DNA of 22,735 bases from a virus: IMG/VR virus record IMGVR_UViG_3300032240_001542, positions 1-22,735 of that record; one strand, written 5' to 3'. Every line of letters starts with the position of its first letter. Position 1 is the first letter of the stretch. Shown here one piece after another: positions 217 through 17,887 of the stretch. Made by a program: the position numbers and the translations under genes. Below the pieces are notes generated by a model, which had not been told where the DNA came from, made no database searches, and saw only the letters and a program-made list of their open reading frames with translations.

Positions 217-252
217 GATAATGGGTGGTTTTTATATAAGTAAAAACACTGA

Positions 253-279
253 TAAAAAGAAACCCGCCGAAGCGGGTTT
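253..279 (-). terminator. Terminator of the tmRNA gene
   Basis: On the minus strand AAACCCGC-TTCG-GCGGGTTT forms a stable stem with a UUCG-type loop (261-279), followed by TCTTTTTAT (down to about 253). It lies just downstream of the tmRNA coding segment and is the natural end of that transcription unit. Confidence 0.85.
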
Positions 280-320
280 GGTTGTTTCTGTTACGAGGCA
301 TTTCCTGCCCTAAGCGGTTT

Positions 321-353
321 TTAGGCCGCTAATGCGTAAACTTCATCGTTTGC
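321..353 (-). other. tmRNA proteolysis-tag reading frame (ANDEVYALAA)
   Basis: Starting from the GCA resume codon (351-353) the frame reads ANDEVYALAA and stops at TAA (321-323). ANDE at the start and ALAA at the end match the proteobacterial ssrA tag, whose C-terminal LAA-type end is recognised by ClpXP. The TAA sits in the loop of a GCGG..CCGC stem, as expected for tmRNA. ANDE..ALAA resembles gamma/betaproteobacterial tags more than alphaproteobacterial or cyanobacterial ones. Confidence 0.9.
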
Positions 354-461
354 GTCTATAGGTTTTGCTTCTACGACCGGGTCACCCCAATCCTAACGGC
401 TTTCACATTGCCGAGCTGTCCACTTCAATACTCTTTGCCCTGTCGAAACCATGGCTGGCCC

Positions 462-522
462 ATTATTAAGTACACTCAGCTTTCGCCTTGCTTCCAGAAT
501 ACTCGGATCGGAGTATACTTAA
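462..522 (-). other. Intervening segment between the two tmRNA pieces
   Basis: This segment joins the CCA end of the acceptor piece (523) to the 5' G of the coding piece (461) and would be removed in processing. Its ends form a 12-bp stem with one G-U pair: TTAAGTATACTC (522-511) with GAGTGTACTTAA (477-466). The stem holds the mature 3' and 5' ends side by side, as expected for precursor cleavage by tRNA-type nucleases (inference). Confidence 0.8.
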
Positions 523-593
523 TGGTGGACCAGGCGGGAGTTGAACCCGCGTCCAGAACACTTTTTTCTCTGCTTCATACAGCAATAACTTAT

Positions 594-622
594 ATTGTAC
601 AATATTTATCGTACAATGTCAA
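594..622 (-). promoter_or_regulatory. Sigma70-type promoter of the tmRNA gene
   Basis: TTGACA (622-617), a 17-base spacer and TACAAT (599-594) make a near-consensus sigma70 promoter, with a predicted start near 587. Within it TTGTAC-N10-GTACAA (595-616) is an exact inverted repeat that could bind a dimeric regulator. GATAAATA (610-603) resembles the phage late box, so the gene may be read early and late. The promoter starts just past the stop codon of the upstream gene at 625. Confidence 0.8.
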
Positions 623-2883: not shown

Positions 2884-3364
2884 CTTTGGCGGGCACTTGA
2901 CACAGTGCTTCCAAAGTTTTGTAATGCTCGTAGGCTTTCTTCAATGCTTCAAAGTGTTCTAACTTTTCAGGATCTGGAACTAGTATAGCCAATCGACGAT
3001 TAATTTCTTCCAATGTTTTCAAAACACTAATACCTTTAATTTTTACATCTTGGTCAAATTCTGCATTACCAGTCACACTCAAACTAGGTGTGTTTGTTCC
3101 CACAGAGGTACTCCACATCGAAGACCCGTTGCTACCGTTGTACAAATACGAACCAGCAGAACCAATAGTATATGGCCCTGATGTTGAATTAATGTTGATC
3201 GTACCAGAACCCCACAACGAAGTATCTATAATGATAGTGTCTTCTAACACATCGCCTATCTCTTGAGCAATGATTCCCATATCCTTAGAATCACTGGTCC
3301 ATTCAAATTCAGCAGGCTTTATTTTATCCAAAGCCTCTTTTATTTTGTCAAATTCGTTATCCAT
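2870..3364 (-). CDS. Probable virion protein with S74-chaperone-like motif
   Basis: This 164-residue protein has three parts. Residues 1-45 resemble the signature of peptidase S74 / intramolecular chaperone domains: I-K-P-A-E-F-E-W followed by GIIAQEIGDVLED. Residues 46-105 are Ser/Gly/Asn-rich and beta-like, as in fibre stalks. Residues 106-164 are helical (KTLEEINRRLAIL, then HFEALKKAYEHYKTLEALC) and probably form a coiled coil. Such proteins occur beside structural genes in T4-like phages. The S74-like motif is at the N terminus, whereas the usual domain is C-terminal and self-cleaving, so cleavage is not implied. It overlaps its neighbours by 8 bases upstream and 14 downstream. Confidence 0.8.
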   Translation of the reverse strand: MDNEFDKIKEALDKIKPAEFEWTSDSKDMGIIAQEIGDVLEDTIIIDTSLWGSGTININSTSGPYTIGSAGSYLYNGSNGSSMWSTSVGTNTPSLSVTGNAEFDQDVKIKGISVLKTLEEINRRLAILVPDPEKLEHFEALKKAYEHYKTLEALCQVPAKDDNS

Positions 3365-3584
3365 TTAAGTGAGCCTTTAATTCAGTGAATCCACCAATTA
3401 ATGCTCCGTCGATAAAAATTTGTGGAACAGTACGAGCTGTAGGTACAGCTTCTAACAATTCTTCTTTAGTGTATCCATCGCCAATTTTCTTTTCTTCAAA
3501 CGGGATGCCTTTTTGTTTTAACAATGCCTTTGCTTGATCGCAATAAGGGCAGTGGTACTTACTCCATACAATCGCAGTTGTCAT
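3357..3584 (-). CDS. nrdC: Glutaredoxin
   Basis: This 75-residue protein is a complete single-domain glutaredoxin. It has the CPYC active site at residues 12-15, the cis-proline TVPQIF motif (about 53-58) and the GG-F-x-E-L end near 64-68. It would donate electrons to the ribonucleotide reductase encoded just upstream, recycling the NrdA C-terminal cysteines. It starts with AAGGA 9 bases upstream of ATG, 11 bases after nrdB, and overlaps the next gene by 8 bases. The symbol follows the usual naming of phage RNR-associated glutaredoxins; other glutaredoxin names are equally possible. Confidence 0.93.
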   Translation of the reverse strand: MTTAIVWSKYHCPYCDQAKALLKQKGIPFEEKKIGDGYTKEELLEAVPTARTVPQIFIDGALIGGFTELKAHLNG

Positions 3585-3595
3585 TTTTATTTTCC

Positions 3596-4690
3596 TTATA
3601 GATCTGGTAGTTCGTCGTAGCTAACTGAGTCACTCATAACTCCAATAACATAGTTAGTACTTTCATTTTCTTGTAGAGCTGTTTGCTTCTTATTAATGTT
3701 AACGTGTTTGTTAAACCATGGGATAGGACTGGACTTAGGATGTTCACCTGCGTACTTAATACCAATATCTTTCAAACGAGTAAATGCTGTATAGTCTACA
3801 AAGTCTTTTAAAATATTTGCGTTAAGACCAATAACAGGACCTAACTTGAACAAGTAGTCGGCCCATGTCTTTTCTTCTTTGATAACTTCCATATACATGG
3901 CGTATACTTCGTCTGCACAGTCACTTGACAACTGAACAAAGTCTGCATCATCTTTGTACACGTTGTTGATGATCCAAGCAGTCCATTCTGCGTGTAGCAA
4001 TTCATCTTGTAAAATCAAACTGATAATGTTGCCATTGCCAATATAGATCTTATTCTCAACCATGGCTAGTGAGGTGGCAAATGATACCATGAAGCGGAAT
4101 GCTTCCAATGCATAGCTCGCGTGTAGTGCCAACCAAATCGCTTTCTTGTGATCGTATGTAGGAATTTCTTCGCCCAATTCTTTACGGCAGTTAAGGGTGT
4201 GTAAATCTTCATAGTAACGTCCAATGTTAGCGGCCATGTCTACAATTTCACTAGTATCATGGATCTTATTAAATTCTTCTTTAGGTACACCATACACATT
4301 ACGAATAATGTGACTGTATGATTTGCTATGTATGTTAGTTTCAAAGAAACTCCAGTTGCTTACTAGCGATTCCAACTCGGGAATACTAATAACAGGACTG
4401 AATACTTGATTAGGTGCTCGACCTTGAATTGAGTCCAGTGCTGTTTGACGCAGTAGGTTGCTGGTAAAGATATGTTTAACTGCATCGCTGGCATCCTTAT
4501 GGTCCATTTTGTCTTTAGTAAGACTGATTTCTTCCGGTACCCAGAAAAAGCCACGTGCTGTTTCCTCATACTTGGCTATCTTAGGATGACGGTATTCTTC
4601 AAATCTTTGGACTGTTACTGCACCATCCAAAAACATTTTTCGTTTAAGATAATTTGTAGGTGTTTTTAAATCGTATTGTTGTTTTGACAT
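3596..4690 (-). CDS. nrdB: Ribonucleoside-diphosphate reductase, beta (radical) subunit, class Ia
   Basis: NrdB carries the diiron-tyrosyl radical centre for reduction of NDPs to dNDPs with NrdA. The protein has 364 residues. Visible residues: Asp86 (TALDSIQGR), Glu117, His121 and Tyr125 (FFETNIHSKSY), Glu196 (ALEAFRF), Glu230 and His233 (DELLH). The tail NYVIG..SYDELPDL fits the NrdA-binding C terminus. Compared with E. coli (D84, E115, H118, Y122, E204, E238, H241) the Glu117-His121 spacing is one residue longer; the others agree. The frame can be opened at 4711, but the ATG at 4690 has AGGA 9 bases upstream and avoids overlap with the aldolase. It lies between the aldolase and the glutaredoxin in one operon. 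Confidence 0.96.
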   Translation of the reverse strand: MSKQQYDLKTPTNYLKRKMFLDGAVTVQRFEEYRHPKIAKYEETARGFFWVPEEISLTKDKMDHKDASDAVKHIFTSNLLRQTALDSIQGRAPNQVFSPVISIPELESLVSNWSFFETNIHSKSYSHIIRNVYGVPKEEFNKIHDTSEIVDMAANIGRYYEDLHTLNCRKELGEEIPTYDHKKAIWLALHASYALEAFRFMVSFATSLAMVENKIYIGNGNIISLILQDELLHAEWTAWIINNVYKDDADFVQLSSDCADEVYAMYMEVIKEEKTWADYLFKLGPVIGLNANILKDFVDYTAFTRLKDIGIKYAGEHPKSSPIPWFNKHVNINKKQTALQENESTNYVIGVMSDSVSYDELPDL

Positions 4691-4691
4691 A

Positions 4692-5318
4692 TTAGTGTTT
4701 TCCTGATGCAAGTACTATCTTGCAAATGTGTTCTAATCGCTCAATGTGCTCAAAAGCACGCCACGGGCTAGTATCAATGGCAACTACGCCATGCCCTTTA
4801 ATTCCTACAATATCGTAGGCAATATTACCCATATGATCCAACTTGAGATTCTTATGGCACTGATCTGCAAGCTCTTGGCTGATAGGAGCAACATCTCCTA
4901 CATTGGGTGCTACCTTGGTATAACGATTGAGTTCTGGAAACGTATCGCTAATAGTGCTGAGGTCAATACCGGCATGCATGGCCGCAATACAGTATGTTGG
5001 GTGGACATGTACTACTACACGCACTTCGCCGTTGTGTTGTCCCATGTTTCTTTGTAGTCCAAAGTGTAAAGGAATCTCTCCGCTTGGTGTTAAATTCTTA
5101 CTAATGTCTGTATATTTTAAATCCATCCAATAAGAACCATCGTTGGAGATGCCAATCTTTTTAAACTGGTCTGGCTGTAGTGTTTGCTTACGCACACCGC
5201 TCGGTGTAATATAAAAGTGATCGCGGTCGTGATGTCGTATACTTACGTTGCCATCACGGCTAGTAATCCAGTTACGCTTGTAAGCGTCTTCCAATACTTC
5301 ACAAATAGTTTCTAACAT
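4692..5318 (-). CDS. Class II aldolase/adducin family protein
   Basis: This 208-residue protein is a full-length class II (zinc) aldolase/adducin domain. Seen: the N-terminal TSRDGNVSIR phosphate-site motif and ITPSGV (about residues 19-42), the catalytic-type Glu in SGEIPLHFGLQR, the HVHP pair of zinc ligands (about 103-106), KGHGVVAIDTSPWRA, and a third ligand in HIERLEH. The family includes fuculose- and rhamnulose-phosphate aldolases, ribulose-phosphate epimerases and methylthioribulose-phosphate dehydratase. The substrate cannot be read from sequence. All metal ligands are present, so it is probably active. Its ATG overlaps the nrdA stop codon by one base (TAATG), and nrdB follows directly, so it is co-translated with RNR. 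An aldolase between nrdA and nrdB is unusual. Confidence 0.92.
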   Translation of the reverse strand: MLETICEVLEDAYKRNWITSRDGNVSIRHHDRDHFYITPSGVRKQTLQPDQFKKIGISNDGSYWMDLKYTDISKNLTPSGEIPLHFGLQRNMGQHNGEVRVVVHVHPTYCIAAMHAGIDLSTISDTFPELNRYTKVAPNVGDVAPISQELADQCHKNLKLDHMGNIAYDIVGIKGHGVVAIDTSPWRAFEHIERLEHICKIVLASGKH

Positions 5319-7645
5319 TATAGTTTACATGCCTCACAATCATCTTCTAGTTCTTCATATACTGTAACAGGTTCAGACGCAACTAAGCTATCGGTTTGAG
5401 TATTCAAAACATTTTTAGATCCAACCTTGTTGATAAGGCTGTAATAAACAGTTTTCAATCCCCATTTGTAGGCTAACATTAAATTCTTAGCAATCAATGT
5501 GCCAGGCACTTTACCATCTTTGAATTGTGCAGGATTGTAGAATGTGTTAGTACTTAGACTTTGGTCAATGTAGGCCGCCAGCACAGCCGCAGTTTTCAAA
5601 TAGTCAACACAGTCAGTCTGATCCCACATCAACTGATAACGATTCTTTAGTCGTTTGTACTCTGGTACTACCTGTACAAACGATCCAGCCTTTGATTCCT
5701 TAACAGAAATCATTTCCATCGGCATTTCAATTCCGTTGGTGGAGTTTAGAACAACTGAGCTGGACTCTACTGGCGCCACTGCCATCAATGTGGCATTACG
5801 GATACCATACTTCTTCATACGCTCACGTAATGGTTCCCAATCTAAACTAGGAGCAAAATCTGTTAGTTCATTAACTCCATTGTTTCTGCGTTCCCATGGA
5901 AATACTCCCTTACCATAGTAAGTGTACTGACTACGTCCGCATGGGCCTCTTTCTTGGGCAAGCTCGACACTGGTTTCAGTAAGGTAGTATGCTTGGTGTT
6001 CCATCCAGCGTTTAACTTCGGCCAATGCTTCAGGTGTTCCATATTTGAAACTCTTGCGAGCATGCCAGTAGGCCAAGTTGGTAATGCCAACGCCGAGAGG
6101 TTCAAAATCTGTATTGGCTAGTTTGCTTTGTACACTTAGGAAGTCTTGATAATTTAATAAATTGCTTAGACTACGCACTAATACACGGCATGCCTTGCGC
6201 ATCTGTTGCGGGTTGGTAAATGCACCCCAGTTTATACTGCCAAGAGTGCAAAGAGCAATTCGTCCCTCAGGATCTTCAATTCTTTGGAAAGGCTTTGTGG
6301 GTAAAAGTATCTCTTGGCATAAGTTTGATTGATATATTGGGTCAAGCTTCGTATCAAAAGAGCCCTGGTTGATGACGTTGTCAATGTTGACAAGGTAGAT
6401 GCGGCCAGTATCAGTACGTTCTTTAAGTATACCGTTTTTGAATATCTCATCTGCTGATACACTCTTCTTTTTAATTGTCGGATGCTTCTCATAGTTTAGA
6501 TATAACTTTTCAAATTCTTGACTATCTCTGTAGTATGCTTCATATAGGTCTGGAACTTCAGCTGGGTCAAACAATGTGATTGTTTGATTGTTCTTATAAC
6601 GGTTCCAGAACATCTTATTGACCACTACGCTGTAGTCCATTTGACGCACCCGCACTTCTTCAGTACCTTGATTGTTCTTTAGCACAATGAGGTCTTCAAA
6701 CTGATAGTGCCAAATAGGATATGTAACAGTACAACTTGCATTTCTGATGCCGCCTTGACTGCAACTACGCAAGTCTGCGAACCATTTCTTAAGAAAAGGG
6801 ATCATGCCCGTATGTTTAATTTCTCCGTTGCGAATAGGAGCACCTAATGGGCGAATTCTGCCTATTTCAAGGCCAATACCAGCTCTTTTAGACGCATATT
6901 TGGCCATCATTTCGCCAGCGGCAAAGATACTGTCTAATGTGTCGTCGCTAGTAATAAGCACACAAGAACTGAACTGCTTAGTAGTAGTTCCAAGGCCGGC
7001 CAAAACGGGAGTAGCCAAAGTAAAATGGCCTGCACTCGCGCACTCATAGTAATCTTTAACATATTTTAACCTCGTTTCTGTTGGTTCATTATGAAACGCT
7101 GTTGCCGCGGCAATAGCATATCGAACTTGTGGAGTTTCATAAATTTTATCTGTTGCACGATTTTGTACAAGGTACTTTTCGGCCAGTTGAGCAATAGCGG
7201 CAAATGTGTATTCTTCGTCTTTGCTATGGTCAACAAACAAGTCGATAATGTTCCACTCGTCTTCTGTATACCAGTCTAACAGTTCCTTGGTATACATGCC
7301 CGCTTCGATATTTTTTTGCACAATACTGAACAGCTTGGGTGGTGTGTATTCACCATATACTTCTTTACGCAACATACTGACACGTTGACGGCCAGCAACA
7401 TACTGATAGTTTACATTGTTAATCTCTGGGTTTTCTGTTTCATCTATCAAATCAACCATGGCCTTGAGCAATAGTTCATCGATAGTTTCTGTGGTCATTC
7501 CGTCGTGTAATTCAATCTGCGCCTTAATTTCTACCATGCTTGGGCTGACGTTGTCAATCCCGTTGCAAGCGTGTGCTACCTGTCTCTGTATCTTACTAAT
7601 GTCTAAAGGGACTCGTTCCCCATTACGTTTGACCACTGTGATCAT
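5318..7645 (-). CDS. nrdA: Ribonucleoside-diphosphate reductase, alpha (catalytic) subunit, class Ia
   Basis: NrdA binds NDPs and effectors and performs radical-based reduction. At 775 residues it is close to the E. coli length. Domains: an N-terminal ATP cone (about 1-95, KRNGERVPLDISKIQRQV start), then the ten-stranded barrel. Active-site residues are visible: Cys228 (QFSSCVL), Asn441, Cys443 and Glu445 (SNLCQEI), Cys466 (IALCTLGSIN), and the radical-transfer tyrosine pair in KTVYYSL near the end. The tail DDCEACKL has the shuttle cysteines as C-x2-C, against C-x4-C in E. coli. AGAAGGG lies 7 bases before the ATG. It heads a run of coupled genes down to about 1078. No intein or intron interrupts it. 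I see no clear promoter in the 33-base gap upstream. Confidence 0.97.
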   Translation of the reverse strand: MITVVKRNGERVPLDISKIQRQVAHACNGIDNVSPSMVEIKAQIELHDGMTTETIDELLLKAMVDLIDETENPEINNVNYQYVAGRQRVSMLRKEVYGEYTPPKLFSIVQKNIEAGMYTKELLDWYTEDEWNIIDLFVDHSKDEEYTFAAIAQLAEKYLVQNRATDKIYETPQVRYAIAAATAFHNEPTETRLKYVKDYYECASAGHFTLATPVLAGLGTTTKQFSSCVLITSDDTLDSIFAAGEMMAKYASKRAGIGLEIGRIRPLGAPIRNGEIKHTGMIPFLKKWFADLRSCSQGGIRNASCTVTYPIWHYQFEDLIVLKNNQGTEEVRVRQMDYSVVVNKMFWNRYKNNQTITLFDPAEVPDLYEAYYRDSQEFEKLYLNYEKHPTIKKKSVSADEIFKNGILKERTDTGRIYLVNIDNVINQGSFDTKLDPIYQSNLCQEILLPTKPFQRIEDPEGRIALCTLGSINWGAFTNPQQMRKACRVLVRSLSNLLNYQDFLSVQSKLANTDFEPLGVGITNLAYWHARKSFKYGTPEALAEVKRWMEHQAYYLTETSVELAQERGPCGRSQYTYYGKGVFPWERRNNGVNELTDFAPSLDWEPLRERMKKYGIRNATLMAVAPVESSSVVLNSTNGIEMPMEMISVKESKAGSFVQVVPEYKRLKNRYQLMWDQTDCVDYLKTAAVLAAYIDQSLSTNTFYNPAQFKDGKVPGTLIAKNLMLAYKWGLKTVYYSLINKVGSKNVLNTQTDSLVASEPVTVYEELEDDCEACKL

Positions 7646-16889: not shown

Positions 16890-17312
16890 ATGACTACTAA
16901 GTTTTCGCACGTTAAAGGTTCGGAAGTAGAATTCAAAGGAGGAGGTCTAAGAGACTTTTTCCTATACAAAGACCTAGGAGTAGCAGACGCTACTAACGGT
17001 CGCGTCCTGGCACACATCACAAAGGCCAACTTGCCCCCAGAAAACTCAGGCGGTACAGGCTGGCATATTCATGTAGCTGAGTTCCAAATCGTTTACATGT
17101 TAAAGGGTTGGGCCAAGTTCATGTACGAAGACAAAATACACCTAGTTGAAGCAGGCGACTGCGTACAGCAACGCCCAGGTATCGTACACTACTTGTACGA
17201 CTACAGCCCAGACATGGAGTATTTGGAAATTATTACACCGGCAGATTATAGTACAGAGCCTGCAGAAGGACCATGTGCTATACCTGATCCAACTCCTTGG
17301 CCAGAAAAATGA
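16890..17312 (+). CDS. Cupin-domain protein
   Basis: This 140-residue protein is a single small-barrel cupin. Motif 1 is GWHIHVAEFQIVYMLKGWAKF (about residues 58-78), with His59, His61 and Glu64 or Gln66 as metal ligands. Motif 2 is GDCVQQRPGIVHYLYD with His100. Cupins of this size include isomerases, dioxygenases and sugar- or metabolite-binding proteins; the substrate is not evident. The C-terminal tail is Pro-rich. GAAGGAG lies 6 bases before ATG, and its stop overlaps the hydrolase start (ATGA), so the two are co-translated and probably work on related substrates. Confidence 0.88.
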   Translation: MTTKFSHVKGSEVEFKGGGLRDFFLYKDLGVADATNGRVLAHITKANLPPENSGGTGWHIHVAEFQIVYMLKGWAKFMYEDKIHLVEAGDCVQQRPGIVHYLYDYSPDMEYLEIITPADYSTEPAEGPCAIPDPTPWPEK

Positions 17313-17887
17313 AACTAGTTTATATTCACGGTGCCAGTGCTACTAGTGAAAGTTTTAACTATATTCGAAGTAAGATAGGCGGAACAGACATGACTGTTAA
17401 TTACGACAGTCGTAACGGATTTGAAAACAACCTAGCGGCTATTAAAGAACAAATCGGTAAGACTAAAGATGTATTCTTTGTAGCACATAGTCTAGGAGGT
17501 ATATATGCATTACACTTGGCCAACGCTATTCCCAAACAGGTTCTAGGTGCTGTTACATTAAGTACACCATATGGCGGCGCTGAAGTAGCAGAATTTGCTA
17601 AGTTCTTCTTACCATTCAGCAGACTAATGCGCGACATCGGTCCTAGTAGTTGGGCAATGAAAGAAGCAAGAAATATTAAAATACAGCATCCGTGGACCAA
17701 CGTGGTTACTGTAAAAGGACAAAGTCCGTTTATGGCAGAAGCCAATGACGGAGTTGTAACCATAGCAAGCATGAAGCATCATGATGATATGGAATTAGTG
17801 GAAGTAGATTATAACCACTACGAAGTTGTGCTTAGTGATACAATAGTAGATATTATCAAGGAACGAATAAAAAAGTTCAAAAAATAA
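17309..17887 (+). CDS. Alpha/beta-hydrolase (lipase/esterase-like)
   Basis: This 192-residue protein has the short PGAP1/lipase-like fold: an oxyanion stretch VYIHGAS, the nucleophile elbow AHSLGG (Ser61), LSTPYGG, and the acid/base pair Asp147 (ANDGVV) and His170 (YNHYEV). All triad residues are present. No signal peptide is seen, so it acts inside the cell if expressed alone. The start is the ATG at 17309 overlapping the cupin stop (ATGA); a longer frame from 17297 is less likely. A phage esterase could act on host lipid, capsule or a small metabolite; this is not decidable here. Confidence 0.88.
   Translation: MKLVYIHGASATSESFNYIRSKIGGTDMTVNYDSRNGFENNLAAIKEQIGKTKDVFFVAHSLGGIYALHLANAIPKQVLGAVTLSTPYGGAEVAEFAKFFLPFSRLMRDIGPSSWAMKEARNIKIQHPWTNVVTVKGQSPFMAEANDGVVTIASMKHHDDMELVEVDYNHYEVVLSDTIVDIIKERIKKFKK

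Follow-up and report, generated by a model that had tools for sequence, protein, structure and literature searches.

A circularly permuted tmRNA gene in a phage contig, and protein genes probably nested in the intervening sequence of its relatives

The intervening sequence (IVS) of phage two-piece tmRNAs is probably a nest for small, exchangeable protein genes, and the precursor would then be both a tmRNA and an mRNA. The nested genes start by the encoded CCA of the acceptor piece, have their Shine-Dalgarno sequence in a covarying helix that extends the acceptor stem, and stop in or before the other strand of this helix, so that processing of the RNA and nested translation may be coupled. As coding sequences the predicted nested open reading frames (ORFs) are well supported; their expression from the precursor and its coupling to processing are put forward as hypotheses. 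Phage two-piece tmRNAs are widespread in viral contigs, and the IVS, thought to be discarded in tmRNA maturation, appears to have become a phage site for inserting and replacing protein genes, i.e., those of a thioredoxin, an iron-sulfur scaffold and many unknown proteins; if true, this is a new way of combining a structured RNA with an mRNA. The 22,735-nt stretch of DNA analyzed here (the window; IMG/VR record IMGVR_UViG_3300032240_001542) carries what is, judged from its sequence, very probably a functional, phage-encoded, circularly permuted ssrA gene of the beta type, which is an empty version of the nest-bearing IVS arrangement.

The tmRNA gene of the window

The permuted tmRNA is the one gene that ARAGORN reports in the window (230–615, minus strand, tag ANDEVYALAA). 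In an Rfam search of the window, RF01850 (beta_tmRNA) matches over its full length with 118.4 bits (cut-off 84, E = 7e-36), and RF04321 (tmRNA_permuted) also matches, with 117.7 bits (cut-off 47). The assignment to the beta type follows RF01850 as the top-scoring type model, a lower, overlapping match of the same clan being omitted. ARAGORN, Rfam and the letters themselves give the order acceptor piece, IVS, coding piece, which is the permuted layout. The tRNA-like domain is complete, with T-arm, 7-bp acceptor stem, CCA and the G3-U70 pair, and ARAGORN finds a resume codon and a stop-ended tag frame. The predicted fold has an energy of -110.7 kcal/mol. The features are as follows.

594–622, minus: sigma-70-like promoter, TTGACA (622–617), 17-nt spacer, TACAAT (599–594); 11/12 consensus matches
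523–587, minus: acceptor piece ending in the encoded CCA (525–523) (ARAGORN, Rfam); 5' end placed from the promoter
579–583, minus: 5' strand of the P2 tip, GCUGU, partner 419–415 (Rfam alignment)
534–550, minus: T-arm, GCGGG-UUCAACU-CCCGC (Rfam alignment)
527–533, minus: 3' strand of the acceptor stem, CUGGUCC, pairing 7/7 with 461–455; G3-U70 is 459:529; covaries in relatives
462–522, minus: IVS, 61 nt, ORF-free; predicted hairpin prolonging the acceptor stem
285–461, minus: coding piece, 3' end approximate (ARAGORN, Rfam)
455–461, minus: 5' strand of the acceptor stem, GGGCCAG (Rfam); pairing kept in relatives
415–419, minus: 3' strand of the P2 tip, ACAGC (Rfam alignment)
321–353, minus: tag frame GCA AAC GAT GAA GTT TAC GCA TTA GCG GCC TAA, i.e., ANDEVYALAA (ARAGORN, letters)
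260–279, minus: intrinsic terminator, AAACCCGCTTCGGCGGGTTT followed by CTTTTT; stem covaries among 15 relatives
3357–7645, minus: nrdA, class II aldolase gene, nrdB and thioredoxin/glutaredoxin-like gene, upstream of the tmRNA (PHROGs, Pfam)

The initial annotation had placed a two-piece tmRNA at 285–622, in agreement with ARAGORN and with two Rfam models above cut-off; the span is adequate, the extent from promoter to terminator being 622–260. Its landmarks (CCA end at 523, start of the coding piece at 461, spacer of 61 nt, tag at 353–321) are exact when re-read from the letters. The 7-bp acceptor stem with G3-U70 that it described is also found, 461–455 pairing with 533–527 at 7/7 positions as in the relatives, and so is helix P2, with the tip GCUGU (583–579) paired to ACAGC (419–415) in the Rfam alignment.

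A T-arm pattern scan of viral contigs yielded at least 120 stretches, and among the matches listed ARAGORN called 102 permuted and 13 one-piece tmRNAs, the window copy included. The acceptor stem is paired 7/7 in 96/96 records with both pieces located (window included), where the 5' strand was chosen as the best of 8 offsets, every time offset 11 or 12. G3-U70, the alanine identity pair, is invariant across these records, and compensatory stem types occur (GGGCCAG, GGGCCTG, GGGCCGG, GGGGATG, GGGGGTG and GGGGTCG). The helix at the IVS ends has 8.59 of 9 pairs in the relatives versus 6.09 if partner strands are exchanged at random among the sequences (z = 25), and in the window it is predicted to fold as a hairpin of more than 10 base pairs. 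The P2 pair appears as GCUGU/ACAGC and GUUGU/ACAAC, with modest support from covariation. Promoter scores of at least 10/12 are found in 47 of 112 relatives versus about 6 expected from shuffles, and the promoter sequence of the window is identical in the relative L064. Promoter (622–594) and terminator (279–260) flank the tmRNA, which therefore constitutes a self-contained transcription unit.

Phage affiliation, tag and proposed role

Upstream of the tmRNA and on the same strand are nrdA, an aldolase gene, nrdB and a glutaredoxin-like gene. L064, the nearest relative among the matches listed, has a tmRNA coding part that is 91% identical, and shares 85% identity with the window over 4 kb. Identity is lower for L124, L116, L068 and L002, where the tmRNA still lies near nrd genes; nrd genes and tmRNA are also found together in L119 and L301. 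Since tmRNA genes are normally cellular, and common integration sites, it could be argued that the region is host DNA or an assembly chimera, and the tmRNA bacterial. This is scarcely credible, however: the nrd neighborhood of the tmRNA recurs in independent viral contigs, and near relatives come from other metagenomes, so that an assembly chimera was rejected; the neighbor genes are phage-like by PHROGs and Pfam, and no resembling host copy was found in the genomes sampled. The earlier claim that the gene is phage-encoded is borne out, the window being the entire IMG/VR record and containing nrdA, nrdB and exonuclease genes of phage type. Together, the covarying stems, the nearest relatives and the kept nrd neighborhood argue for a resident phage gene under selection.

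The window NrdA is nearest to those of Xanthomonas and Stenotrophomonas phages, and the exonuclease to those of phages of 340–490 kb. No blastn match was found for the window and its tmRNA in 50,697 phage records, or for the tmRNA in 72,556 plasmids. As to T4 core genes, nrdA and nrdB are present and no T4 structural core gene was recognized among the proteins scanned; a T4-like phage is plausible only. The gene between nrdA and nrdB (4692–5318, minus) is of the class II aldolase/adducin type (PF00596, E = 8e-29). At 16890–17887 (plus), a cupin gene and an alpha/beta hydrolase gene run opposite to the prevailing minus strand, and just upstream of the tmRNA (625–930, minus) a small, secreted-looking protein rich in Gly, Tyr and His is encoded, with no Pfam or PHROG match.

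The tag had been taken to suggest a betaproteobacterial host. All DNA spellings of ANDEVYALAA followed by a TAA stop were sought in the genome_contigs collection (one genome per species, 84,980 species); they occur in six cellular genomes only, all gammaproteobacterial (Xanthomonadales/Lysobacterales or Thiotrichaceae), and in no betaproteobacterial genome of that collection. ARAGORN detects a tmRNA in four of the six, each time in one piece, and none in the other two. The same tag recurs in at least six other viral loci. The host can therefore not be identified from the tag, and the betaproteobacterial inference is weak, although the RNA type itself is beta-like. The search for a host copy covered genomes of the class to which a Xanthomonas MAG belongs and used DNA, pattern and the models RF01850 and RF04321; in this shallow sampling, with few candidates scored per genome, no beta-type host copy was found. 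It gave short partial matches and, in G027, a single permuted tmRNA, which belongs to another type (tag ANDDNFEVALAA); a near relative of this tmRNA is present in G435, of the same order.

No smpB was recognized among the annotated ORFs of the 22.7-kb window fragment; that of the window's phage may lie elsewhere in its genome. SmpB is absent from 23 of 24 viral records of relatives, including eight of 202–363 kb, which makes the SmpB of the host the likely partner. The one record with an SmpB, L061 (215 kb), carries a tmRNA in one piece and perhaps includes host DNA.

Among the matches listed, an LAA end is shared by 82 of the 116 distinct tags of viral relatives. Long tags of 26–31 residues with a conserved peptide (ANADTFDFSAMSFTGNTV...) occur in L032, L093, L120, L235, L261, L291, L293, L300, L302, L325, L353 and L368; they are under protein-level selection (pS 0.41, pN 0.13), and most have an ordinary ALAA-type end. 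A second set of 29–33 residues, with VKVTxGKGFRFG-like or GEVTVS motifs (L027, L046, L055, L073, L079, L020, L219 and L343), perhaps does not consist of simple degradation tags, because several end in AFA or FAV and not in LAA. The tags of a third set (L180, L282, L296, L312, L314, L337 and L352) have 23–28 residues and approximate STFxYxQVxV...NDxxFALAA.

Host polymerase would transcribe the window tmRNA as a single precursor, from which RNase P and tRNA 3' processing would excise the IVS (522–462), leaving two mature pieces held together by the acceptor stem and P2. Charged by host AlaRS, the tmRNA would be delivered by host SmpB to ribosomes stalled on broken mRNAs, of which there may be many in the infected cell, and the nascent chain would receive ANDEVYALAA and be degraded by host ClpXP-type proteases. 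The most likely benefit to the phage would be that ribosomes are kept available and in use while mRNAs are broken.

It is unlikely that the gene serves mainly for redirected tagging, i.e., host-protein degradation or early amino-acid recycling as suggested for phage Melnitz, rather than for freeing ribosomes. The strong host-type promoter would suit such a role, which has been proposed in the literature (PMC9004378), but trans-translation targets stalled ribosomes and not finished host proteins, and the tag of the window is ordinary. A decoy role, in which the phage tmRNA titrates SmpB or AlaRS of the host or obstructs host rescue, has been proposed for the tag-less tmRNA of mycobacteriophage DS6A and is more doubtful still for the window. 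In E. coli, expression of a phage tmRNA fragment of the DS6A kind does inhibit tmRNA (PMC11915505, PMC4131195); in the window gene, however, tag frame and stop are both intact, and the coding piece shows the conservation of functional tmRNAs. That the gene, known from its sequence alone, is a non-functional relic captured from a host is highly improbable, considering that the intact tag and the compensatory covariation in acceptor stem, IVS helix and terminator indicate continuing selection.

Comparison with known tmRNAs

A two-piece tmRNA has been described in the T4-like methylophage Melnitz, with similar functions suggested (PMC9004378, 2022), and two-piece forms make up 53 of 133 structures of phage tmRNAs, aquatic phages being the source of 50 of these forms (PMC9004378). 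The initial annotation had regarded the window phage as a possible novel carrier, which does not hold: Melnitz and other phages already have two-piece tmRNAs (PMC9004378), and the viral-contig scan adds at least about 100. The window tmRNA is a further, beta-type member of this known group. The Melnitz ssrA (gene 86 of a Methylophilales phage, MZ577097) is likewise phage-encoded and permuted, with T-arm, CCA, IVS-end helix and the same layout, but matches the alpha model RF01849 and not the beta model. Melnitz also has a glutamine riboswitch, whereas a search near the window tmRNA gave no match to one, and its IVS of 142 nt contains an unannotated ORF start, compared with the empty 61 nt of the window. 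With respect to RF01850 and RF04321, the full-length window match is well above the curated cut-offs, and its source differs in being a phage.

Mycobacteriophages Bxz1 and Wildcat and phage G also carry ssrA, but in one piece (PMC4131195). The tmRNA database holds 79 bacteriophage sequences (PMC11915505), and huge phages carry tmRNA and sometimes SmpB too (PMC7162821). A gene inside a permuted-tmRNA IVS, as in the relatives of the window, is known from GCA-2688965 (PMC11915505); there it is a tRNA-Ala gene in one sequence, whereas the relatives have protein genes in dozens of sequences. The 2025 database calls this tRNA-Ala unique, and another IVS has a repetitive element (PMC11915505). A search of 5.39 million open-access papers gave no report of protein genes in the IVS of two-piece tmRNAs.

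Probable protein genes in the IVS of phage relatives

In L064 an open frame takes up the whole IVS of 223 nt, compared with the empty 61 nt of the window; this 65-residue ORF (MILQDLEYIFKPQVDEG..., L064:336–584, minus) is found inside the tmRNA IVS of L260 and L269 too, which are likewise near relatives of the window's tmRNA. The IVS sample comprised at least 115 clusters, formed at 85% identity and all fully paired in the acceptor stem; most came from three pattern scans, of which one required an ATG and two did not. Frequencies among the matches listed are not population frequencies. A nested ORF was defined as a sense ORF that starts at most 30 nt from the CCA and runs to the IVS end; expected counts were obtained by shuffling the IVS body with the start codon kept in place, treating clusters as independent. 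Spanning ORFs are at chance level in IVSs below 110 nt (36/64 versus 31.9 expected), and rise above it at 110–139 nt (8/11 versus 1.95), 140–179 nt (14/14 versus 0.86), 180–239 nt (14/15 versus 0.25) and 240 nt or more (8/11 versus 0.03). Overall, among the matches listed, one spanning sense ORF is present in 36 of 40 clusters with an IVS of at least 140 nt, compared with about 1.1 expected; three exceptions among the longest IVSs, L104, L346 and L340, have tandem ORFs, as judged from the sequences themselves. In the sample from the T-arm scan, unselected for a start codon, 16/91 IVSs among the matches listed reach 140 nt. A nested gene in the window's own IVS was rejected, given its 61 nt and the chance rate of ORFs in IVSs below 110 nt.

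Two of the nested ORFs belong to known families, i.e., thioredoxin in L202/L237 (PF00085, E = 4e-21) and the IscU/NifU scaffold in L357 (PF01592, E = 3e-55). For homologous pairs, dN/dS is 0.13 in L064/L269, and pS and pN are 0.76 and 0.12 in L087/L258, 0.78 and 0.30 in L057/L081, 0.93 and 0.29 in L037/L351, and 0.57 and 0.38 in L249/L310; the pair L180/L282, with few changes, gives no sign of purifying selection. Because of the Pfam families, and because silent changes outnumber amino-acid changes in homologous pairs, the nested ORFs are taken to be real genes. The nested proteins of L275 and L081 have no tblastn match in phage records, and for the IscU-like protein there are matches in 16 records filed under phages, though several of these records may represent bacterial DNA. 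The nested ORFs of L275 and L340 look acetyltransferase-like by eye and have no Pfam match.

With the RF04321 model, 132 cellular permuted tmRNAs were found in 130 of 388 same-phylum genomes, spanning 187–332 nt, and ten nested phage tmRNAs detected with the same model span 425–709 nt. These cellular two-piece tmRNAs are therefore too short for such nested genes, a control that rests on spans; the longest cellular one, L401, has no evident IVS ORF by eye. On a quick tree of the tmRNA, one short locus, nested and empty states change 37 times versus 35.5 with shuffled labels, and at least 23 of these changes are forced by well-supported branches. Nested and empty forms are thus as scattered as shuffled labels, which suggests that the genes come and go.

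The IVS of the cultured phage Melnitz (L161, MZ577097; bases 46,077–46,218, 142 nt) has the helix UAAACACUU/AAGUGUUUA and an ATG at about 46,096 behind GGAGAAGUAU, with GGAG upstream; the frame has at least 50 codons and runs past the IVS end, and the record has no feature annotated there.

A typical nested IVS begins with UAAGGAAGUUU-AUG after the CCA and ends in ..GUUUCUUUAUGAU ahead of the coding piece. A Shine-Dalgarno-like motif is present in 38/44 nested IVSs. Because the covarying helix has the two IVS ends as its strands, the motif is paired in the six precursors folded; in the excised IVS it is predicted to be largely paired too. The stop codon is the UGA of UAUGAU in 19/44, where the frame thus includes the helix strand, which encodes a C-terminal -VSL or similar; in 16/44 the stop lies just ahead of the helix strand, and in 8/44 the frame reads past the IVS end.
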